Shown here piece by piece: positions 23,061 to 58,200 of a stretch of 64,000 nt of DNA. The DNA is from Schoenoplectus triqueter (taxonomy: Eukaryota > Streptophyta > Magnoliopsida > Poales > Cyperaceae), in NCBI GenBank assembly GCA_964058805.1, contig CAXKVV010002169.1, forward strand, positions 248,001 through 312,000, given 5' to 3'. The notes beneath the pieces were generated by a model. It saw only the letters and a program-made list of their open reading frames with translations, searched no databases and was not told the origin of the DNA. Position numbers and translations under genes: made by a program. Position 1 is the stretch's first letter. Every line of letters begins with the position of its first letter.

Positions 23061-23098
<38 letters not shown>
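23061..23098. repeat. (AT)n microsatellite
   Basis: About 19 uninterrupted AT dinucleotides, followed by further AT-rich sequence. Confidence 0.9.
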
Positions 23099-23104
<6 letters not shown>

Positions 23105-23118
23105 ATATATAGAGGGAG

Positions 23119-23530
23119 AATAAAGATACCGTGAGATTAATCTCACAGAGTCGTTTCGTGAGTTTAAGTCAAAAAATATATCAAATTGTCTTCAAATTTT
23201 AGTTTATCATGCATATTAGATTCTTTATATGAAAATATTATGTGATGCAAAGATTTGGAGTGTTTTCAGCTTTTTAAGCCACCATTTTTAATTTTTAAAA
23301 ATGATGTTCAAGTATTAAATATTTTATCATTATTTTTAGAGCTGATTTTTAAAAATTAAAAATCATGATTTAAAAAACTCAGAACACTCCAAATTCTTGC
23401 ATCTCACAAGATTTTTATATAGAGAATTTAATGAGAATGATAAATTAAAATTTAGAAATGATTTGATATAGTTTTTGAGTTAAGCTCACACAAAGTCTCT
23501 GTGAGCTTAACCTTACGGTATCTTTACTCA
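23119..23530. mobile_element. Long foldback MITE
   Basis: The two halves are inverted copies of about 190 bp. One end reads AATAAAGATACCGTGAGATT and the other, on the opposite strand, GAGTAAAGATACCGTAAGGTT, with similarity continuing almost to the centre near 23330. The element could fold into one long hairpin. No ORF. Confidence 0.75.
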
Positions 23531-24009
23531 TATAATATATATACTGGCTATATAACCGCGCGTTGCAGTAGAATTTTTTATTTAAACATTAAAATATAAT
23601 AAAATAAAATAATTCACATTTATCTAATATTAAATTATAAATTCACTAAATTATAGAGAAAATATATAATAAAACTATATTTAATCTTGGATGAGATTTT
23701 TGCACAATATGAGTTAATGATTCATGATTTTTATGGCAAGAAAAGTAAATTATTCTAACATATATAATCACCATTAATTTCTTACCAAATATGCACAAGG
23801 TTGCTAAATAAAAAACAAAAATTAGGGAAATAATAGTATATAAGGGAAAGAAATGGAGAGAAAGAGGGGATCAATGGACGCGATCACATACGTTCGATCA
23901 ATCAACAATAAATATTATCCGTCTAATTGAGGGATAAAATGGGTATAATAAAAATTTACCATGACAAAAAATGGACCCTCCAATTCTTAGATGCTTTATA
24001 TAATAGTAT

Positions 24010-29140: not shown

Positions 29141-29170
29141 AAAACTAGTGAGTTCACTTAAACAGTAACT
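29141..29170. repeat. Left arm of a 30-bp perfect inverted repeat around the hAT
   Basis: This 30-bp arm is exactly complementary to 36637-36666. Between the arms lie a short loop, one target duplication and the hAT element. Without the element and one duplication copy, the site would be a 30-bp stem with a 15-nt loop. Confidence 0.9.
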
Positions 29171-29199
29171 TCTTCATCTTTCTTAGAGGTGGCAAAATC

Positions 29200-29560
29200 T
29201 GACCCGACCTGAAAAACCCGTCCGACCCGCCCGGGTCTGAACCCGATCCGATCCGATTTTTTCAAAAAGTTAAACTGACCCGAACCCAACCCGATCCGAC
29301 CTAAGACAACCCGAGAGCATAGTGCACAAAACCCGACTCGACCCGACCCGAATGACCCGAAACCTGACCTGAAACCCGAGACGACCTGAGATCAAATGAC
29401 CTGAAATCCGACCCGATCCAAACCCAAACAATCCGAAACCTGAGACGACCCGAGATCAGACAACCTGAAACCCGACCCGATCCGAACCAGAACGACCCGA
29501 AATCTGAGATGACCCGAGATCAAATGACCCGAAACCCGACCCGACCCGATTTTAAAATTT
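29200..29560. repeat. hAT left subterminal GACCCGA array
   Basis: More than 20 degenerate copies of ACCCGAC / CCCGAAAC, the probable transposase-binding region. A matching array at 36250-36615 closes the right side. Confidence 0.8.
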
Positions 29561-31680
29561 TGAAATATAATTGAAAAATTAGAACTTTAGAAATGCATAT
29601 CTTATCTCAGTCATTTTACAATATATATAGTGTGACAAATTATGATTAATAGACATTAATTATTGTTATAGGTCATGACAACGGTGGTGATATTTTGCAA
29701 ACAAAGAATATATGGGTGTGTCAACATATATATACAAATACAAGTGTATGACATAAATACAAGTGTATATTATAAGTATTAATTTTACTTGTATTATTAG
29801 TTAAGATTAACAGATGATAAATAACTATCAAATGAAATTAACAGATGATAAATACTTCAAAATTTGTTTCTGTAATCCATAAAATTTTAAAGTCCATGAA
29901 GTACAATATATTAAAAATTATACATATGAATAAATGAGTAATTTGATTATTTTATAATTTTAAATGAGGTACTATTGAATAATTATCTGCTGGTGTTGTG
30001 TGTCATTTGTCACTAATTGAATAGTTTAGGGTCGCCAAAATTAAAATTTTGTGAGCCAATTTATCACATCCTAAAAGTTTGAATCCAACAAAAAAGAACA
30101 ATTGGAAATAAAATATCGAGGATGAAGAGGATCCATCCCCCAAAGCTACAACGTTAGGGGATAAGCAGAAACTTTGACATTTCACGAGGCGGGAGAGGGT
30201 CTCCGAGCGATGTGCTTTGCCTTCTGTCTTCTTTAGTCATACTACCAATTACTTTTACCAGTTCAGCCATCGATTTACTAGTACTTAACATGACTCCCCT
30301 GCCCAACGATTCTGACATAACCAAACCTTTCGCTATATAACCAAACCCTTTTTCTTTAGTTGGTCCACCCAGGAAGGTTTTATAATCTATTAACTGAAAA
30401 CAAGCTGTATAACCATTTCAGCGTGGGTGGATTTTTCCGATAGCGAGGGCGGACATCAGACTAGCTGCCTTTTCAAGTTCACTTTGCAGCTCTACCGGGG
30501 CCTATAACTAAACCTGAATTAACTAATGGCCAGAAAAGTTCAAAGTCACAACTTAATTGGAAGCATGATACCAACAGATGCTTCTTTATTTAAAATAGAC
30601 AAGTGTGAATGAAATGTCGTGGAGTAATAGTCCATCATTGAACAATGCAGTTTACTATATATCTGTAGTACATGAGATATGGCTAAGAACCTCATTAATA
30701 GCTCAAAACAAGCCATAACTCCATTAATAGCTACAAATACTTCACAAATTAAAAAAAAAAGTGTTTCTGACAAAATCCTAACTAGTATGTAATAAGGATG
30801 CCCATAAAAAATAAAAATAGAAATAGAAATATTTATATACAATAAGTCTCCATAGCAAATCAAAATAGAAACACGATATAAGGCTTCATAATATTGTCTA
30901 TAGCAAACCAAAATAGAAATACCCTATAAAAACTCCATAATTTTGTCCATAGCAAACTAAAACAAAAACAAGCTCCAGTTGAGAACAACTCAACGAGCTT
31001 TGCAAGCTCCATAACTTTCAACAAAAAAAAAAAATAAGGTTTAGAACCAACAGACCTACAATAAGTTAGAAGACTTTCATAATCAAACAGCTCTCCAATA
31101 AGACCCCACAGTGCAATTAAGGTGGCATGTTGATATCACCTAACAATCTGTAAATATAAATTTTGGTTCAGTTTTATTAAAAATCAAACAAAAATGTATA
31201 AAAATCTGGTATGCTATTTGATCAGAATGATAAACAGAATGATAACCTAATGATAAACAAATGATTCTGCACAAAAAATTCTAACAGAATGATTCCATCA
31301 GAATGATAACCTAATATCATAACCTAACCTGATATGCTATTTGATCAAATTATGATGATTTGGGCTAAATACCATCCATAATGAGAATTTAATTGTTCTT
31401 TTGAATTACCAAGATCAATTAATACATTAAAACTTTTGAAGTGACAATTGAAACAAGAACTCATATTGGGGTTCAAATGTTTTTTGTGCCTCTGGGATAA
31501 AAATAATTCCGATGTTCATATGCTGGCCCGCAATAAGCCAATAACTACTTGCGCCTCTTATATCATTTGCTCACATCCTTTTCAAATAAAAGACGGGGAA
31601 TTACAATTTTCTCATATATTATACAACACTTGGTCATGCATTTATAGTCCTTTTGAACTAATTCTGTTAATAGAGGGGAT
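29561..31680. other. hAT interior downstream of the transposase
   Basis: No additional ORF with recognisable similarity. Contains 30681-30838, a direct copy of 34083-34233. Confidence 0.5.
30681..30838 (+). repeat. hAT internal direct repeat, copy 1
   Basis: About 150 bp sharing CCTCATTAATAGCTCAAAAC, then a CATAACTCCATTAATA-like stretch and GGATGC with 34083-34233, in the same orientation. The pair brackets the transposase gene. Confidence 0.75.
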
Positions 31681-33793
31681 TTACCAAGCATGAGAAGATG
31701 AAGGCGGGATATATTGGGGCTCTTCGGCTAAGCCAACCTCCACTCCCATGAAGTTATTGCCTTCGGTATCCTCAGAACCATAAGCTAATAAAAATAAAAC
31801 AGCAAAAACATCAATATAAATGTGCTTCTACAATAAAAAGAGTGAAATAAACAAAGAAGATGTGCATACATTCATAACCAAATAACCAACTGCGGGTGGT
31901 GATCAATGCCTCCGAATTTTCTGGTAAAAGACGACTTCTCCATTTGTTTAAAACCCGACCTCCAATACTAAAAGAAGATTCTGAGGCAACGGTCGTGATA
32001 GGTATGCTCAATATATCACGCGCCACTGCCGATAAAATCGGAAATCTTTCTTCATTTTCCTTCCAATAGCCAAGGATATCAAATTCCCCATCTTGAGTAA
32101 TCCTTGGCTCATTTAGGTAAATGTCGAGTTCTATCCTTGTTAAATTGAAATCATCACCATCACAAGAAGAATAACCCTACACAAAAAAGCTTCATTAGTT
32201 ATATTATTAATAGAATACATAATTAATTCAATGAAAATAATCTAATTATGTGAAACTTACATCATAGCTGTCATCATCTGAATGTCGTTGTCGAAGAGAA
32301 GTATCTTCTCTTCTGTCTTCATTGATAGATGTAGTTAATCTAGCAGAATACTCCGTAAACATGTTCTCAAGACGGATTTTTACTACATCTGTCTGTCTCT
32401 CATCGTTCATTTGTTTATAACGAGAACGGACAAGTTTAAGCTTATGGCGAGGGTCAAGTATCACTCCAAAGGACAGAATCTGACTATAATCTCCCCAATA
32501 CTTGTTAAATTTTACTCTCATTCCATCTGCCATTTGCTTAATTTCTGGATCTGAACTTTTTGCCATATCAGATAACCGCATTTGGATTTTCCACACATTT
32601 TCAAAATATAAATTGGTTGTAGGATAATCACTCCCCGAAAATAAATTAGTGATTATTTGAAAGGTTTTTAAAACTTTGTGAATTTCAATCATTTTATCCC
32701 ACTCAATTGCCGAAGGCAAGTGGACATAATGATTATCCATTGTACTTAGTCTCTCAAAAGCTTGACGGTACAAAATGGCTCTATCAAGCATTTGATAAGT
32801 GGAATTCCATCTAGTAGTGACATCTAACCATAACCCTTTTGAGGATGTAATTTCAGCTAGTTGGACACATTCCCTAAATTTGATTTTCCTTGCCTCTGAA
32901 CCCTTTACGTACTTAACACTCTCTCTTACCTTCTCAACTGCTGTAGTTATAAACTTAAGCCCCGCTTGAACAACTAAATTTAAAATATGAGCACAACATC
33001 TTATATGAAAGAATTGACCTCCACACACGAGAGAATTATTGAGTCGGTAACACAAATTCTCTTGCATGTTATCCATGTTAAGAGCATTGTCCATGGTAAT
33101 TGAAAAGATTTTTTTCTCAATACCCCATTCTTTCAACATGCCATGGATAACATCACACAATACAATTGCACTATGTGGAGGAGGAACATGACGAAAATTT
33201 AAAATTCTACTAGATAACTTCCAATCACTATCTATGCAATGTGCGGTGAGACAAAGGTAACCCTCAGTATTGCATGAGGTCCACAAATCAGTAGTTAAAC
33301 AAATTCTACCCGGGATGGACTCAAGAAAACTTTTTACTCTCTCCATATTATTATGATATAATTTTAAACACTCAGATTTCATAGTATTTCTAGAAATAAC
33401 CCGAACATTCTCATTTAAGTAAAGATGAATATCACGATCACCTTCATGTTCAGCCCACAAGAAAGCATAGCCATGGAGTAGAACGGCTCGAGCTAGTTTT
33501 TCACGATAGACATTTTGATCTATCTGTTTACCACATGATCCTCTCTCAATATCATCATTGGTACGAGCTCTCTTCTTACATGATTGAACATGACGGTTCA
33601 TGTTAGTGGTCCCTATCCTTGAATCAGCCATGTATTTATTTCCACAGTAATTGCATTTAGCCTTGACGATGTTATCTTCCACAAATTTTGTAAAATGAGA
33701 CCATGCTGGAGATTTTAAACTTTTGACTGATACAGGAGTAATCGTCGACTCTATTTCTTCAGTGATGGTTTCTTCCTCCATTCTATTATTCAT
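31681..33793 (-). CDS. hAT transposase (zf-BED, RICESLEEPER-like)
   Basis: Three exons on the minus strand: 33793-32261, 32176-31870 and 31784-31681, with GT-AG introns of 84 and 85 bp. The frame stays open through both junctions, giving 647 residues. Residues about 29-73 form a BED zinc finger (C47, C50, H68, C72). The RNase-H-like core follows, with TTDLWTS (D169), [11 protein letters not shown] (D235) and the [11 protein letters not shown] motif. The C-terminal hAT dimerisation region reads [20 protein letters not shown] with [10 protein letters not shown] after it. In the family these domains bind the element's ends and catalyse excision and integration in the nucleus. The usual DNASNND motif is replaced by DNALNMD. 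I expect the protein to be complete. A 5' leader exon and TATA-like promoter may lie near 35.2 kb. Confidence 0.85.
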
Positions 33794-36249
33794 ACAGATA
33801 AAAAAAAAAGTTAGAACAAGATAATACTTGGGTAGCCTCTATAAAGTTAGTTAAATTCACATGGGAACAAGACAATGCTTGAGAACCATAACTCGTTCTA
33901 AAGTTCAAAAGGTTTCTTTTATATTTGACTGGTATTATGTTCTTTTACATTTTACTGGATTGTATTAAAGTCTCCATCAGATTTGAGAACAGAGTTGATA
34001 TCTAATTCACATGCATGTGACTAAAATTCAAAACAGAAAATTAATCACACAAAACACTAATATGTACTGTACCAGAGACATAGCTAGAAACCTCATTAAT
34101 AGCTCAAAACAAGCCACAACTCCATTAATAACTGTAAATACTTCATAAATTTAGAAAAAAAATGGTCCTGACAAAACCCTAATTATAAGCAATAAGGATG
34201 CTCACAAAAATTGAAATAGAAATATATTTTACCGAGGAGATTCTTACATCAAGCAAAGGAAGAAGCTCTTCAGCAATACTTGTGGAGACTTGAGCTTGCT
34301 CCCAGACTGAAGTTGAAAAAACAATATGCAAAAAAGTGTTACACATAATAATTTTAGCAATCTTGTCATTTGTTTGATTAAATTGACTGAACAAAATTTC
34401 AGATGCAACCCATCAAGTTTTACACCTTTCAAACAAAAATTTCATTTAGAGCACTCATAAACATTATCTTTTGGTTTAGCAAGTATGCGTATACTAATAT
34501 ATACTGTAACAGAGATGCAATTGGACAATCTCATGCACTATTTGAAAGATGGTAAATTAGTAAACCTAGTCGTTAATTGCAAACTCATTTTGAGCTTTCA
34601 TCACTAAGTACAAGATATGCAGTTTAGTTGCTTTCCAGCTCAAGAAAATAAAAAGAAACGAAAAGAGAGATTAAATGCATCTGGTTTTAATAGAGCACCA
34701 AAATAAAATACAACTGGTTAGTAAAGCAACAAAAAAATGCAACCGGTTCTAGCAACAAAGCTTATTCAGCCTATCTAGCACCAAAACAAGAAGAAGCAAA
34801 TTTCTAATAAAATTCCATAATGAACATCGATAAACTTCCCTCCCAAAAAAAAATCCAAATTCCAAACAAATATAAGATACTGCCAACAAAAAAGTAAATT
34901 TATAATAAAAAATTGATAAATACATGGGGGTTCTTGGCGACTCTTCTCGGTGGCTGCTCGGCGACTCTTCTCGGCGCACAAGGTAAAGAAGAGTTGAGCC
35001 GAGAGAGGGGAAAACGGAACGGACAGAGCACAGGGGTCGCGAGTGGTAGCGCGTTGTGGAGGCAGTGCGCGATCGACGGAGAAAAAGAGGGATGAAAGAG
35101 GGGAAAAAGAAATATGGCAGTGAAGTGAAAAGATTTGTCGACTGGGAGGGAAGAGAGAGAAAACTGAGGAGCAAAGAGTTTCATGTAGAAGAAATTTGTC
35201 GACTGCGCACAAGTCACAACAATACTTAATGTATCTAAACTGTTGAAATTTCTTAAGATTCGTATCAGCACGACTTATAAAGTTATTGAATGATATATAT
35301 ATTGTGTTGTATAATACTGCATAGTAGTGAATCTGGATTAGTACATATTAGGGTATAATAGCACTGAGAGGTATTGGGGGGAAATTTTCGTCAAAAATTC
35401 ACCAAAAACTAGGAATTGGAAATTATAGTGCGCTCTGCTACGCTGTCAGAAATCAGAATAAAGTTGCCTACTAAAATCGAGTAAGTTCATTGCATATTTT
35501 ATCTAATAAAATTTGCATACTCAATAGCATAATTTAAAATTTGCATATTTAATCTAATTCGATCCCATAAAAAGAAAAATAAATACATATTTCTCTCAGT
35601 TGAAGCGGCATCATCAATAGCGTAATTGTTTTTCTATATCCAAAAACATTATTTGTATTTAATTATCAGTTTCATAACAAATGCGCTGTTTTAATTTGTA
35701 CCATATCAGCACACAAAATAAGCTAAAATTAGAAGTCTTAATTGATTTAAAATTTTAAATTGAGGCGTGCATTTTTTTTGTTGCTGTAACTTCTGAATTC
35801 AAATGAAACTTATTAAAAAAATTTCAAAACGTAATAATATAAAAAAAACAAGGTTAGTATATGGATGATATATACTCTTAAAAGTCTCTGACCAAGATAA
35901 TTAGTTGTACACTATACATATACACTGTTTTGATTGATCATCCGTTATATCGTGTAAAATTTCCTGATCAACTAATGTATTCTGATATTAAAATTTATTA
36001 TTTCGATAACATATATTAGTCCTTAGAAAATATTGTTCTACCTTCGTTAACTATCAAGAATGTCTTAAGTTTATTAATAAATTGAATGATATCTCGATCT
36101 AAAACTGATCAGACTAAATTCCAACTAATTAATCATATCTATATAACTATATTATTTAAAAAATTAAATTGATCATAATATAATTAAAAAGTTTAGACCT
36201 GGCATTGGCTAAAATATATTTCTGAGAAAAAAATATTTTAAAGTCTAAA
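33794..36249. other. hAT interior upstream of the transposase
   Basis: Probable leader or promoter DNA. A GC-richer patch at 34920-35200 contains a duplicated GGCGACTCTTCTCGG unit, and a minus-strand TATAAG lies near 35275. 34083-34233 is the second copy of the internal direct repeat. Reading frames here are low-complexity and not credible genes. Confidence 0.45.
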
Positions 36250-36615
36250 GACCTGAAATTCGATCCGACCCGACCCGAAATAAAATGTGACAAAAAAAGA
36301 ACCCGACCCGGCCCGGCCCGACCTGAGGCAACTCGAAACCCGAGACTACCCGATATCAGATGACCTGAAACCTGACCCGACCTGAACCCGAATGACCCGA
36401 AACCCGAGATGATCTAAGCTAATGAGAACCTGAAACCCGACCCGACCTGACCCGAAATGACCCGAGACCCAAACAAACCCGATAATATTCAACCCGAAAC
36501 TCGACCCGACCTGGACCAAATCGACCCGAACCCGACCTATGACCCGACAATATTTTTGGTCAAACTTACCCGACCTGATCCGTCCGAACCCGAACCCGAC
36601 CCGACCCGCCCGATT
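36250..36615. repeat. hAT right subterminal GACCCGA array
   Basis: Dense ACCCGACC / CCCGAAACC units up to the right TIR, in the same orientation as at the left end. Confidence 0.8.
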
Positions 36616-36636
36616 TGCCACCTCTAATCTTTCTAT

Positions 36637-36666
36637 AGTTACTGTTTAAGTGAACTCACTAGTTTT
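36637..36666. repeat. Right arm of the 30-bp inverted repeat around the hAT
   Basis: Exact reverse complement of 29141-29170. Confidence 0.9.
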
Positions 36667-38115: not shown

Positions 38116-41100
38116 TCAATAAATAAACACAAGAGGGACATGCGATATGAGGTGCCAATCTTCACCAATTTCTCGTGTACAGCGTTTGCCTAGCAGTGGG
38201 CAATCATCAATTACAATCCATTCCAAAGCAGTGAGGTGTTGGATGGAAAGGGGAAGGGAATCAAGGCCTGGGCATTTACCAATTGTCAACCTCTGAAGAG
38301 ATTTAAGTTCCCCTAACCACTCTGGTAACTCATTTAGATTTTCACAATTATCAATTTTCAGTTCACGAAGACTGGAGAGCTGCGTTAAGCTATGGGGTAA
38401 TTGTTCCAGATTGTTGCAGTTCTGGATACTGAGTTCATTAAGCAAGTTGAGATGATGCAACAACTTCCACCCATGTGATGCTGTAATATCAGCGATAGTT
38501 ACCTTCTTAGTATAGAAAGTAAGCATTGTTGATGATGATGGCTCAGAAAAGTTAGACGTCACACCCCTTAGTACCGCCTCATTGCTAAAATCTAGTTCTA
38601 ATTGTTCCACAGATGGGGGTATAAAAGGGTGGACTTCCAAATTAGGGCAAAGCCAAATTGAAAGACGAAACAATCGGGGACATGCTGGCTTTGGATTGCT
38701 GCTTTTCTGGTCTTCATCTACTATTGTTGACCAAAGAGAAAGTTTAGGCATATTATATAGAGTCAACGTAGTGAGTGATGAAAAATGCTGGCCCTCAATA
38801 GTGAGAAGTTCATCCATAGTATTTATGTTCATTTGCTTGAGGTGAGGGAAATCAACCTGGGGGAGGATAGTGCATTTTACTCTTCGAAGTTCCAAGAACG
38901 TTAGGTATGGAAATGGTGAAGAATTGTTCTCCATCACCATCATCCACTGTGGATATATATTTGCAGGATAGTCCCATATGATCAACCTTTTAATATTTTT
39001 ATTGGGCCGAAGACAATCCAGAACATTCAGACTGAAATCAGGGTCCATTCCTTCCCCTCCCCATCGAAGGGTGAGCTCTTCAAGCTCCTGCTTTCTCTCT
39101 AATTGAGCCTTCTGGACATCCCAAAGACTTTTCAATGCTCTTAAATTTCTGATAGTAAGCTCATCACCCAAAAGGTCCAGATATTCAAGCTCTGAAATTG
39201 AGGCATATTTGTTGTCTCCATCCAGAACAAACATGTGCAGCTGCTGGAGATGTGTCAACTCTCCTATCCCTCGAGGGGCATTACGTAATGACCAACATCC
39301 TTTGTTCTTTAGGTACCTAAGCTTTGGCATTTTCCCCAGTCCTTCCGGCAACTGCCTCAAGGTGCTACATTGCTGAATGTCAAGACACTCTAGGTTTACA
39401 AGTTCATTGATCTGTGCTGGAAGATTTGAGAGCCTTGTTCCTCGTAGAAAGAGAGAACACAATCGTTTAAGATTAGATATGGACTTGGGTAATGATGTTA
39501 ACGCTTGACAGTATGACAGATTAAGGATGCGAATATTCTCAAGATTACCAATGGAATCAGGCAGGTCTCGAATTTTGCAGGTCGAAAGATTAATGCTCTC
39601 AATATATCGGAGAGTACCGAGTGAAGTAGGTAGTTGTTGAATTTTGCTGCATTCTAAAAGGTTAAGGGTTTGTAAATTTTGAAGGTTCCCAATTGAACTT
39701 GGTAGTTCCGTAATACTTCGACAATAATATAAATTAAGGTTTCGTAACTCCTTAAGCATTTCAAAAACTTCTTCTGTCAAGGTCTCAAGCTCATTGCAGC
39801 AAGAAAGATTTAAAACTCGGAGCTTTTCAAGTTGACCGAGAGAGATAGGAATACTTGAAATGATTCTACATCCTCTTAGGATCAAGCTTTGAAGGTTCTG
39901 ACAACTACCGATAGAGGCTGGTAAAGTTTTAAGTGATCCGCACCATGAAAGATCTAGTGTTCTCAAGTTGCAAAGTTTACCAATATCACTGGGCAGAGCT
40001 AGAAGTTGTTCAGAATCTTTTACATGTAAAGACTGCAAACACCAAAGGCTACAAATTGCTTCTGGAAGCTCTCGGCATTTAAGCTTTGAAATCCAAAGGT
40101 ATCTCAACATTTTCAACTTTATTATTGACATTGGAAATGGTATGGAATTTGTTGGATCTAGAACAAGTGTCCGTAAACATTTAACCTTCATCTTCTTTAT
40201 GAAATAATACCTCATTTCTGAAATTCCATTATCAATAACAAACTTACCCTTATAGATATAAAGACCACGTGCCTTTTGCATGATACTCATGTGCACCTCT
40301 TGTTTGCAGTCTACCAGGCACAAATATCGACAAGATTTATGGAAATCACTAGTTGGTATTGCCTTTGCATGTTCTGTGATATATAGATCATCACCAGCAA
40401 TGGATTTAGCCAGGTCATGAACTAGGTCGTGCATCCTGCATGTAACCACATCTGTATTCTCATCTTTGACAGGATCCTGAAGGAAAGACATTTGAAGCAG
40501 GTCATTAAAATATCCATTTCCAATATCCTCCATGCTGGCATCTCCATCCAACATTGGTATCATACCATGAGCAATCCACTGACCTATCAGCTCATCCTTG
40601 TTGATTTTACCACCTTTAGGCAGTATTGAACAGTATGTAAAGCACTCTTTTAAAATTGGTGATAACTGCATATAGCTCAGTTTAAGGGTTGCAATAACTT
40701 CCTTGTTTTCATCTCCAGGCAGCTTCCATATGTCGCTGTTCCTTACAGCTAACCAGGCATCCAGCCCCTCTTTGTGTTGCATGATGCTTCCTAAATGTTT
40801 TACAGCCAGCGGATTGCCTGCACATTTGTGGACTATATCCTCTGCAATTTTAGCTATTTGAGTGTTAATTTCACTTAGTGGGCTACCAAACACCCTTTGT
40901 GTGAATATGTTCATGCATACATTTTGGGGTAATCCTCCCAACTTGAAAATAATTGTTGATTTCATTTGTTGACCAACTCTCTCCATCCGAGTTGTTACAA
41001 TGATCCTACTGTCTTTTGCTCCGCTCTCCAAGACCAATTTCAGTTTCTCAAACTTCTCTTGGGCATGGTACCAAACATCATCTAGAACGAGTAAAAATCT

Positions 41101-41904
41101 AACTCCTCTAATTGCCTTTGCTAGGTCCTTACCGAGGGAATCAAGACCCTCAGGCACAGATCTTAGACCGGTGGCTGATTGAATCATAGTTCTGAGAACA
41201 GCTTCAACATTAAAATTTTCTGATACATATACCCACATTCTCAATTCAAAATGGTTCTTCACCTCAGTTTCATCATTATACACCATCTGAGCTAGTGTGG
41301 TCTTTCCAATTCCACCTAATCCAACAATTGAAATGATGGAAATGTTCTCTTGGCAATCTGTTCGAACTAACTGATGCATAATTTCATTTTTTTCAGAATC
41401 CCTACCAAAGATTGTTCTTTCCTCAAAAGACCATGTTTCTCGCGTTGTTTGGCCCACCTTGCTCTCGTGAACACATCTTTTCTCTATAAAAAAGTTTCTT
41501 CTCTCATCTGCGATGGCCCCAAGTCTCTCATTAAGTTGACTGATTTTGTGTGCCATCTTTGATCTCTTAATAAGGTTTACCTTCAAAAAAGCCTTACAAA
41601 ATGTTCCTTTTGCAGCACCATGTATGTTGCTCTTTGCAAATTCTGCTTCCATACGGAATTTCTCCAAAAGGTCATCTGCGTCATAGACTACATCTTTTAG
41701 TTTCCTCAGCCAATTGTAAACTGGAATATCATCAATACTACGCTCATTAGCTTCTTGTAGCACATCTTTAATCGTCTTGATTTTACTCTCGAGGGCACAG
41801 AGATCGTTGCTAAGACCCCACAAGAGACCAAACTCCGACAGTAATGGCGAGCTGATCTTATCACACACAATTTTCAAAATAGATGACTCAACCATTCCGG
41901 TCAT
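38116..41904 (-). CDS. CC-NB-LRR disease-resistance protein (NLR), RGA-like
   Basis: One uninterrupted 1,262-residue ORF. Residues about 1-150 form an Rx-type coiled coil, with VYDADDLLEKF in the EDVID position. The NB-ARC domain has GLGGIGKTT (P-loop, 195-203), LLVLDDVW (kinase 2, 271-278), SRIIVTTR (RNBS-B, about 299-306), GNPLA (the GLPL site with Asn in place of Leu, 363-367), CFTYCSILPK (RNBS-D, 421-430) and MHDLVHDLA (MHD, 491-499). About 25 leucine-rich repeats follow from residue about 570 to the C-terminus, many of the form LxxLxLxxCxxLxxLP. NLRs of this class are intracellular immune receptors that switch from ADP- to ATP-bound form when a pathogen effector is sensed. All nucleotide-binding motifs are intact, so it looks functional. 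A second ATG lies three codons in. The pathogen recognised cannot be inferred. Confidence 0.93.
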   Translation of the reverse strand: MTGMVESSILKIVCDKISSPLLSEFGLLWGLSNDLCALESKIKTIKDVLQEANERSIDDIPVYNWLRKLKDVVYDADDLLEKFRMEAEFAKSNIHGAAKGTFCKAFLKVNLIKRSKMAHKISQLNERLGAIADERRNFFIEKRCVHESKVGQTTRETWSFEERTIFGRDSEKNEIMHQLVRTDCQENISIISIVGLGGIGKTTLAQMVYNDETEVKNHFELRMWVYVSENFNVEAVLRTMIQSATGLRSVPEGLDSLGKDLAKAIRGVRFLLVLDDVWYHAQEKFEKLKLVLESGAKDSRIIVTTRMERVGQQMKSTIIFKLGGLPQNVCMNIFTQRVFGSPLSEINTQIAKIAEDIVHKCAGNPLAVKHLGSIMQHKEGLDAWLAVRNSDIWKLPGDENKEVIATLKLSYMQLSPILKECFTYCSILPKGGKINKDELIGQWIAHGMIPMLDGDASMEDIGNGYFNDLLQMSFLQDPVKDENTDVVTCRMHDLVHDLAKSIAGDDLYITEHAKAIPTSDFHKSCRYLCLVDCKQEVHMSIMQKARGLYIYKGKFVIDNGISEMRYYFIKKMKVKCLRTLVLDPTNSIPFPMSIIKLKMLRYLWISKLKCRELPEAICSLWCLQSLHVKDSEQLLALPSDIGKLCNLRTLDLSWCGSLKTLPASIGSCQNLQSLILRGCRIISSIPISLGQLEKLRVLNLSCCNELETLTEEVFEMLKELRNLNLYYCRSITELPSSIGNLQNLQTLNLLECSKIQQLPTSLGTLRYIESINLSTCKIRDLPDSIGNLENIRILNLSYCQALTSLPKSISNLKRLCSLFLRGTRLSNLPAQINELVNLECLDIQQCSTLRQLPEGLGKMPKLRYLKNKGCWSLRNAPRGIGELTHLQQLHMFVLDGDNKYASISELEYLDLLGDELTIRNLRALKSLWDVQKAQLERKQELEELTLRWGGEGMDPDFSLNVLDCLRPNKNIKRLIIWDYPANIYPQWMMVMENNSSPFPYLTFLELRRVKCTILPQVDFPHLKQMNINTMDELLTIEGQHFSSLTTLTLYNMPKLSLWSTIVDEDQKSSNPKPACPRLFRLSIWLCPNLEVHPFIPPSVEQLELDFSNEAVLRGVTSNFSEPSSSTMLTFYTKKVTIADITASHGWKLLHHLNLLNELSIQNCNNLEQLPHSLTQLSSLRELKIDNCENLNELPEWLGELKSLQRLTIGKCPGLDSLPLSIQHLTALEWIVIDDCPLLGKRCTREIGEDWHLISHVPLVFIY

Positions 41905-42498
41905 GAGTCGTGGTTTGGGAAATCGGTTGATTCCGAATAGAATCCGCCGGAAACGAGACGATTTTGACCCGAATTACTCGGCCACGACTTTTTGCACGAA
42001 ATCGCGAAGGAGACTACTAATTCCCCAAATTACTTGTCGAGAATGACACATTTGAGGATGTGTCTTTGTGCACTCAACCAATTTGAAAGTCTTAGACGGC
42101 GTTTTGTGGCGTGGGAGAGCTTCAAAGGGAGCGAAGGGTTCGCTCTGTCGCCAGGAAAAGAAAACCTGCTGTGCTTAATTATTTTAATTATTGCACATGG
42201 TGCATGCACCATTAATTACAATTATTATATTTCCGTGGCAAATTTTTTGTCTTAGTACCTTAACTCTAAAACAAATGGAAGTGCGGCAGGTTCAAAGCAC
42301 TTTGAATTAAAAAATAATTTAAATTTTTTTAGCATCGTTGATTTTGCAATTAGATTCGTAATGATTATTAAAAGTATGAATTTTGAACTTAGATTTTATT
42401 AAAAATATAAATCTCGATACGAAATTAACGATTCTAGAAGGCTTTGAACTAACTTTTTGGTTCAAAGTGTTTTGAACCTCCCTCACTTCCAAAACAAA
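41905..42498. other. NLR 5' flank / promoter region
   Basis: Leader and proximal promoter of the minus-strand NLR. An AT-rich stretch with minus-strand ATATAATAATTG near 42215-42235 could serve as a TATA region, but the match is weak. A GCATGCAC RY-like motif lies near 42200. Confidence 0.35.
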
Positions 42499-43147
42499 TA
42501 GGGCTGTCAATAGATCGGATTCGAATCGAATTCTCAAGGATCTAAATGTGAATCCATTAAAAATTTATAAGATTCATATGTGGATCCGTATCCAAATGCG
42601 AATTCATATTTACTATTATAACGGATTTCGAATTAGATTCGGTTCATATTTCGGATCTTATATTATAATAATATTAAAAATAACATAATTAATATATGAC
42701 GAGAAAAATTATCATGTTATCTTAAAATTATTTATTTCAATCATAAACGTAGTAACAATCATAACTATTTGTTCAAACTTTTTAAACATACAATAAACAT
42801 CAAATAACATAATAAAATATATATAATTAATGCAATAACTACTATTCAACTTTATGAATCAACACAGAGTGAAACATAAATATTGCTCTTCAATTAAACT
42901 AAATTGAATATGTCTATTTTATTAATTGATATATGATATAATTTTATTTATTTATCAAATTCATAGCAGATTCAAATTCGAATCTTATAAGATCCAAATA
43001 CGGATCTATTATATTAGATGGATCATTTTCTAAAATCCATATGCGGATCCAATAAATTAATGAATATATTTTATGGATCCATACGCGGATCCATTTGTGC
43101 GGATTCAGATTAGATTTTCGAATTATGAATATCCATTCACAGCCCTA
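42499..43147. mobile_element. Non-autonomous hAT (MITE) upstream of the NLR
   Basis: 649 bp with ends TAGGGCTGTCAATAGATCGG and (opposite strand) TAGGGCTGTGAATGGAT. Perfect 8-bp target duplications AAAACAAA lie at 42491-42498 and 43148-43155. The subterminal DNA is rich in GGATCCG/CGGATCC and TTCGAA motifs. It has no ORF. It ends 595 bp upstream of the NLR start codon, so it could carry regulatory sites for that gene. Confidence 0.85.
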
Positions 43148-55282: not shown

Positions 55283-58200
55283 ACAAAGAGCCACCCACCA
55301 AGACGGGCCTTGAACGCTCGAAAGGCTTGTCTTGGTGCATTGTTCCTTATCGTCTATCTCTTCATTTCTCATGACGTCTTCTCTTCTTCGGGCATTGTAG
55401 TTTCTTCTCATGACGCCATTCCGCGTCGCCCCTCGAGTCACTACCATTCTTTTTACGAGGATCCTAGTGATTGGACTCCTCTCGTCTCAGCCATCCGAGC
55501 GACTCCTGTCTACCCGCGAGGCGGCGGTTTATTCTTCAGAGATGATCAGCCTCATGACATCATGCCCCTTCAGCCCTTAGGCATTGCCTCTATGGCTCCT
55601 TTGACACATCTCCTGGGCAAGGAGATTATTGACGGGGAGGCTCACAGATGGACTACTGCTCCCTTTATCACTCCTCTAGAGTGTCATGGCTATCAGCTAG
55701 AGTGGACCCGGTATATGCTCATGCGGGAGAGGACTCTGCTCAGGCGAGCCGGGATATATGACTCGGTTTTCTTGTCGATGTTTCATTATCATATCGACAC
55801 ACCCTGGCTACGGGCCTTTTGTGAGAGGTGGAACTACTCCACCAACACTTTGTTTATTGACGATCGGGAGCTGACTCCGACCCTCCTGGAGATACAGCAG
55901 TTGACCGGGCTGCCGGTCTTTGGCCATTTCTATGACGAGTTCATGGTCTCACCCGCTGACTCGGGAGACTTCACTCGATTCCCGCCTTCTTTGCAGAGGA
56001 CTTATGAGATCTATTATCATCTACGGAGGGGGCATCCCGGAGTTCCATTCAGACATTGGATCGCCTATTTCACCGATCGGGTCCATACTCGCCCTACGGG
56101 TTTGGCTTCCACTAGAGATCCATTTGGTACAGGTCGGCTCGAGATTCATCATGACAGCCCCATCCCTTCTCAGGATACCCTGTGTTCACATGACGTGGAT
56201 CGGGAGACTTATCTGACTGCCTTCATTTCTTGGTGGATCTGCTATTTCTTATTGCCTAGCTCCCCCGCATACACCATTCTGCCTTCGGTGTTTATCATGG
56301 CGAGCCTGATCGCGCGTGGCGACAGGATTTCTTTGGCCGTGCCTGTACTGGCCAACATTTATAGATGCCTCCGCGGTCTGACTTCATCTCGTAGTCCTTC
56401 ACAGTGCCAGGAGCTGATTCCATGGCATCTGATTAGCGGATGGCTCCATTTACACTGATCTGGCTCATATGATCCCGGCATGACAGTTACGCTACGGGGC
56501 CGTCTACCCTTATTGAGTGACTTAGCTGGGGTGCAGCCAGCTTCATTGACTCCGGAGGCTGCTCGGTATAGATTCTTCAAGAGCCGAGACCATCTGCGCT
56601 TCTCTCGGGATAGATCAGTGGCCCGTGGGGCAGCTAGGGTTGCCGACAGGATGGTGATTGACGGCAGAGTTCCCTCTTCTGACTCTTCTAGCATCCGAGC
56701 CAGGCCTATCGATTTGGAGTACCTGATCAGTATTCGTCAGGGCTTTCTTCCTCTCAGATTGGGCGATTATATGTTCATTGAGCCCTATTCGCCACATCGA
56801 TGCGCACATCAGTTTGGCTTGGATCAGGATATTCCAGCGCCTCTTCTCCGCCCTATATCACTGGCGGCCGATTTGGAGGGTATCGGATGGTGCTACACTC
56901 ACCTCTTCCAACTAGGCACGAGCACTCGCTATCAGATGGTATCCACCTCTAGGGCTTCCACCTTCACGAGGCGTTATCAGCAGTGGTATTATGAGGCCAT
57001 TCGCTCTTACCAGTCGTATACTCCTCCGGTGGTTGCCCGGAGTACATGTCCGCGAGATGGCCAGCCTCTATTAGATGGTACTGTCTCACGTGATCGCAGC
57101 CCTTTCCCGGCCATTGCCGCAGAGCCTGTCGATTTTCAGGGTTTAGACAGCCGATTTTCTCATGCTCCTGTTAGGACTATTCTCACAGGTACACTTCATC
57201 ATCCCTTTCAGGTTATTTCCCTTTGATAAGTCTCATCTCATCTCGACCAATTCTCTTTTTGATTCAGTGTTGGCTTACGAGTATGATCACGCGGAGCCCG
57301 GGTTCTCAGTCCCTCGTCCACGAGTAGTTGGCGTTCATTCTCAGCCACATATTGAGCCACCGGCTTCAGCCGCCATGGGGAGAGATCGAGACAGCGCCTC
57401 TCAGCCACCTTCCCCATCTTCTTTTCCTTCTCCCACTCCGGGTGATTTTCTTTACTGACTCGCCTATTCTTATTCGGGCGCACTTCATTTACATCTCTAA
57501 TTAAGGTTTATTTTCAGCTCGTGGGACATCTCCTGTAGAGGCAGCCCGAGATGACATTATAGCAGATCCATCGGCGCCGGCGGGCACTGCCCTCTCAGGA
57601 TTCTGCACCGACCTTGCCGTCGCAGGTTCGTGTGCTTCATTTAATACTTAGTTGCCAGTATGCACTAGTATTTTCATTCTTACATGTAGATTTTACAGGC
57701 CCTGAGGCCGATGACATGGCATCTCCACACCGCTCGGAGTCTTTTTTCTACGACGGTCCTGCCTCACCGTCGATTTTACTAGTACCCACTGGGGATGGTG
57801 ACTCCTTTGATGTGGTTCTGGGGTCGGTGCTCACTCTTGTACGATCAGAGGAGGCTTCTTTAGAGCAGGGGAGTCCATTAGCTGTCGAGCCCGCAGGCGA
57901 CGAGCCGCTATTGATCGAGGGAGGGCTATCTCATGCCTCTTCATCTCCCGATGGGCAGCCTCTCATGGCTATAGATGGTGGAGTCTTATCAGATACTCGA
58001 GTGGAGGACTCGACTGAGCGGGTTGCAGTCGATTATGACTCGGAGCTGGATGAGAGTTGGCTGGTGGAGCAGCTATTCGACAGCCCAGAGACGGAGGTTC
58101 CGGCTAGCGAGGGTCTCGCCGAGCCTCATGCCTCTCCCGGTACCTTATATTTCCTTTGTCATTTGCCCGTATTTTATTTTTCATGTACTTATGCTTCTTC

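Follow-up and report, generated by a model that had tools for sequence, protein, structure and literature searches.

Does a transposon that occupies the loop of a perfect hairpin lie there because the hairpin drew it in, or by coincidence? The question is raised by a locus of Schoenoplectus triqueter, in a 64,000-nucleotide stretch of contig C2081 analysed as a whole (hereafter, the window), where the two arms of a 30 bp inverted repeat are held apart by a hAT element. The features of the locus are as follows.

29141–29170, plus strand: left arm of the split hairpin, 30 bp, exact reverse complement of 36637–36666 (found at C60:594917–594946 with 0 mismatches)
29171–29183, plus strand: loop bases left of the insertion and TSD copy 1 (ATCTTTCT, 29176–29183)
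29184–36626, minus strand: hAT element, 7443 bp, with the 13 bp TIR TAGAGGTGGCAAA at both ends (relative at C1758:21897–27533)
31811–32176, minus strand: transposase 3′ exon, 121 aa frame with Dimer_Tnp_hAT PF05699 (Pfam)
32177–32260, minus strand: probable 84 bp intron, GTAAGT...TGTAG, between the two transposase exons (predicted splicing)
32246–33838, minus strand: transposase frame, 530 aa, with zf-BED PF02892 and hAT-like RNase-H PF14372 (Pfam)
36627–36636, plus strand: TSD copy 2 (ATCTTTCT, 36627–36634) and the last two loop bases
36637–36666, plus strand: right arm of the split hairpin, 30 bp (C60 counterpart 594962–594991 with 1 mismatch)

The initial annotation had described a perfect 30 bp hairpin around a hAT element, and its coordinates proved exact, the arms at 29141–29170 and 36637–36666 being reverse complements at 30 of 30 bp. 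Between them lie 13 bp, the 7,443 bp element and 10 bp, with the 8 bp TSD directly repeated at both ends of the element. Joining the flanks with one TSD yields 75 nt that form, as had been claimed for the site after removal of the element, a 30 bp stem and a 15 nt loop holding the target; the TSD lies entirely inside this loop. The rejoined 75 nt hairpin folds as RNA at −43.7 kcal/mol. No other perfect inverted repeat with a loop of 0 to 60 in the window has arms longer than 19 bp. Among non-simple hairpins with a score of at least 30 and a loop of 8 to 15, a single other one was found, the C60 empty site excluded, in 346,846 letters that are not a random sample of the genome. As a sequence feature the palindrome is far beyond chance; that a hAT element landed inside it is a separate question.

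The element has an 8 bp TSD, exact 13 bp TIRs and three transposase domains above the Pfam cut-offs, which place it in the hAT superfamily. The donor of the probable intron falls within the end of the 530 aa frame and the 84 bp stretch is in phase; the transposase is apparently complete. Its frames contain the motifs TTDLW, TMDNA and SESSFS, which may relate to the catalytic DDE residues. Homologues of the transposase are plant hAT transposases, many of them named RICESLEEPER-like (for example in Malania oleifera, 44%). With the plant RICESLEEPER/DAYSLEEPER-like hAT elements of the Ac family it has in common the 8 bp TSD, the short TIR and the combination of zf-BED, hAT RNase-H and Dimer_Tnp_hAT domains, whereas its identity to the best-ranked named homologue, from Linum trigynum, is 49% and its own TIR stands beside GACCCGA-rich runs. 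A single-sequence PDB search matched no hAT transposase, a weak match to tyrosine aminotransferase being judged spurious, and a search of NCBIfam matched no family. Within the open-access papers covered, none mentions TAGGGGTG alongside hAT and a terminal inverted repeat. The closest relative found, at C1758:21897–27533, is 5,637 bp long, has TIRs and is flanked by a perfect TSD, TATGTACT; it has about 923 bp in common with the window element at 100% (rounded) identity. That nearly identical copies occupy different TSDs points to recent transposition.

A copy of the hairpin without the element was found elsewhere in the assembly. Searching its 82.1 Mb (2,086 contigs, possibly incomplete) for the arm at up to 3 mismatches gave four places, which are the two arms of the window and two sites on contig C60, 594917–594946 and 594962–594991. 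The segment C60:594917–594991 (L009:1501–1575) is an empty site: it has a single ATCTTTCT, where the window has one on each side of the element, an identical 15 nt loop and one base changed in the right arm. Its flanks match those of the window (left, 1,546 bp at 98.3% identity; right, 181 bp at 98.9%) and belong to a collinear block (C60:580332–607473 and C2081:258094–290591) whose pieces are about 90–99% identical and broken by other insertions. No excision footprint was seen at the C60 copy. Since the hairpin is present in both copies and the hAT element in one, comparison of the two indicates that the hairpin is older than the insertion, whether C60 and C2081 represent paralogous segments or haplotypes. 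The empty site carries the palindrome, whereas one lacking it would have counted against the initial annotation; the claim that a hAT element had inserted into the loop of a hairpin is borne out, and the hairpin already existed. Two places on C1428 were considered as a pre-hairpin ancestor and rejected, as they match only from 46 bp past the right arm; for the one that was compared, upstream homology was not clear and it is uninformative as an ancestor.

Other features were noted in the window and on C60. A CC-NB-ARC-LRR gene lies within the block at 38116–41973 of the window as a single open frame, with its best named match in Rhynchospora pubera (43%), a faint sign of Poales affinity. One JGI metagenome protein is 100% identical to this gene's product over 98% of its length, so that DNA of S. 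triqueter or of a very close plant seems to be present in public metagenomes. For the transposase frame, too, there is a JGI metagenome protein with 100% identity, over 97% of the frame. Just past this NLR gene, at 42499–43147, is a second hAT-like element of 649 bp, non-autonomous in appearance, with TIRs TAGGGCTGTCAAT/TAGGGCTGTGAAT and TSD AAAACAAA. An open frame at 55283–56458 encodes a plant mobile domain (PF10536) and is likely of transposon origin. On C60, an LTR-type insertion without counterpart in the window lies 140 bp to the right of the empty hairpin (C60:595132–601839; L015, L009), with TGTTG...CAACA ends and flanked left and right by CGAGT; the 85 bp at its start are found again at C60:601582. 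At 23086–23543 the window has an apparent copy of a foldback repeat family, matching C60:588790–589247; the latter also matches C2081:336677–337133, a place with an inverted repeat of 181 bp arms and a 42 nt loop.

What, then, is the hairpin? The initial annotation had offered a foldback or a miRNA-like hairpin. Short, near-perfect arms, in a region that also has further insertions and a bigger family of foldback repeats, are what a miniature foldback transposon or its relic would display, with the hAT element nested in it. However, only two copies exist in the 82 Mb assembly at up to 3 mismatches, both in the same collinear segment; a wider DNA search added no further copy of the arm, and reading of the sequence beside the arms, in the window and on C60, revealed no direct repeats. 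We therefore hold a foldback origin to be quite improbable, and a MITE identity was rejected on the same grounds, the hairpin being neither dispersed in many copies nor flanked by a TSD.

A young microRNA or small-RNA hairpin, disrupted by the hAT element, would agree with the 30 bp stem and 15 nt loop, with the position 1.45 kb downstream of the NLR gene and with the strength of the fold. The DNA fold of the C60 empty-site hairpin has an energy of −26.8 kcal/mol, where shuffled sequences average −6.0 (z −11.7), and none of 200 shuffles folds as well. Yet Rfam, searched with the C60 hairpin and its surroundings (300 bases), gave 20 matches at E up to 5 that are all far below the gathering score, and a search with arm 21-mers on both strands at up to 4 mismatches gave no further site across the 204 kb that surround both loci, where the reversed control had 3. 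An Rfam scan of the whole window, where the hairpin is split by the element, returned no match. A microRNA identity is unsupported by these searches, and this reading appears very improbable to us. The hairpin is most plausibly a private short inverted duplication that happens to lie in an NLR region, rather than a MITE or a known microRNA; the origin that fits best is one event of inverted duplication, perhaps through template switching.

The position of the TSD wholly within the 15 nt loop of a very stable hairpin is also what would be expected if the hAT transposase favoured extruded cruciforms at their tip, or single-stranded loops, and the hairpin had attracted the insertion, as had been suggested. 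We surveyed other insertions with related ends. Searches with TIR ends gave 46 ends in one case (4 in the reversed control; 30 loci extracted) and 5 in another (1 in the control; all extracted), while ends matching TAGRGGTGNCAAW numbered 1,089 genome-wide against 32 in the reversed control; by this excess, the TIR class is a large hAT/MITE group in S. triqueter. Twenty regions were chosen from the first listed places among the 1,089 ends, and 8 of them had both ends and a TSD under our first criteria. Looser criteria applied to all 346,846 letters, with unpaired ends dropped, gave 18 accepted insertions including that of the window; adding the C1758 relative brought the set to 19, hence 18 besides the window's. 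Less certain among the 18 are L056 (2+2 TIR mismatches) and L043, L044, L050 and L067 (1–2 TSD mismatches). A de novo search for CA- or TA-starting TIRs with exact 8 bp TSDs, whose low-complexity filter excluded the window element's own TSD, found 7 elements in the available letters; each belongs to the same TIR class and was part of the set before.

The window stands apart in this collection. The best hairpin score overlapping the TSD is 30 for the window, 15 for L063 and at most 9 for the other 17; L063, the sole middling case, lies within CCCGT repeats with its TSD outside the loop. At the C1758 site TATGTACT the score is 7, and the RNA fold of its 99 nt has an energy of −21.4 kcal/mol, a value that has no shuffled control. 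The median score of the 18 insertions that include the window is 6, the same as for a background of 3,987 random sites (p 0.50 by Mann-Whitney test, and 0.66 when the window is left out); this background comes from the two contigs and is not a random sample of the genome. None of the 18 other insertions of the TIR class is at a hairpin with a score of at least 26. The power of this sample is low, the upper limit that it sets on the hairpin rate being no tighter than about 15%, and a moderate preference for hairpins is compatible with the survey.

How much luck would be needed was estimated from the number of insertions and the proportion of positions that put 8 bp wholly in a loop. Half of the 1,089 TIR ends, less the 32 of the reversed control, gives at most about 530 insertions, many ends being without an intact mate. 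For hairpins with a score of at least 26, the proportion is 0.047% of positions with loops of 8 to 60 (one place counted twice), 38 of 39,681 (0.1%) when random positions are drawn, and 0.005% with loops of 8 to 22; it is 0.0009% with a score of at least 30 and loops of 8 to 15. All but the 0.1%, which comes from the two contigs, were measured on DNA that also includes loci picked by TIR or transposase. For up to about 530 insertions, the expected coincidences are 0.25 (about 0.18 without the place counted twice) to 0.5 under a score of at least 26, 0.03 when its loops are restricted to 8 to 22, and about 0.005 in the tightest class. Luck is easy under the loose hairpin class and strained under the tightest one, which was itself drawn post hoc, and with a single case considered after the fact, luck and a modest preference cannot be told apart. 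With 18 other insertions lacking a comparable hairpin, with chance sufficient under loose definitions and with the power of the survey low, the suggested preference for cruciforms or loops did not find confirmation; it is unproven, coincidence is more likely, and attraction by the hairpin strikes us as quite improbable here.

We infer the following history. A short inverted duplication, with 30 bp arms and a 15 nt spacer, would have arisen once in a plant NLR-gene region, and would have come to be in the two collinear copies of this region seen today, paralogous segments or haplotypes. Later, a 7.4 kb hAT element with an apparently complete transposase would have been cut and pasted into the spacer of one copy, duplicating ATCTTTCT, and the C60 copy was most likely never hit. 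Its landing in the loop would most simply be a coincidence, given the loose target choice of hAT elements and the hundreds of ends that belong to this TIR class. This succession, from the inverted duplication to an ordinary hAT insertion that fell in the loop by chance, appears probable to us; its order of events, its origin by inverted duplication and its chance position are deductions from the observed hairpin, insertion, empty site and flanking homology. The locus is then ordinary in kind, and its use lies in offering, within an NLR region, a clean pair of empty and filled sites for a single hAT insertion. Should hAT elements favour cruciform tips instead, the kinship in mechanism between RAG and hAT would also cover the choice of targets, and part of the landing sites of plant DNA transposons would be explained; the C60 empty site is a real sequence on which such a preference is testable.

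Published target-choice findings make targeting conceivable, not demonstrated. The zebrafish data on Ds indicate a preference for flexible DNA, with a weak palindrome only in aggregated sites (PMC4825651), and the palindrome effect reported for plant LTR elements is very small (PMC6911290). Tol2 is reported to insert at AT-rich, weakly palindromic sites (PMC2753552), which, for a hAT element, speaks against pure chance. Tol2 and Ac/Ds belong to the hAT superfamily, like the window element, and share a loose structural preference in these reports (PMC2753552, PMC4825651). Their palindromes, however, are weak, of short length and have the insertion site at their centre, whereas the window TSD is non-palindromic and lies in the spacer of a 30 bp stem. 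From the pattern nTnnnnAn given for Hermes (PMC10368747), ATCTTTCT departs at the A. Among the matches listed, the titles and abstract openings of the open literature hold no account of hAT insertion into hairpin loops.

The nearest precedent for targeting is RAG-mediated transposition, for which cruciforms are described as an efficient target (Lee et al. 2002, as cited in PMC2753552). That plant hAT transposases may likewise insert preferentially at the single-stranded tip of an extruded cruciform, with the empty C60 and filled C2081 copies as a natural fossil of it, has in our view a very slim chance of being right. RAG transposition is reportedly rare in vivo and much rarer than random integration (PMC2822523); the transposase is a different one, and no enrichment at hairpins was seen for the TIR class of the window element (0 of 18). 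The likeness between the two systems lies in insertion at an inverted repeat capable of forming a cruciform and in related chemistry, since flank hairpins are reportedly made both by Hermes, itself a hAT element (PMC6900584), and by RAG (PMC2822523).
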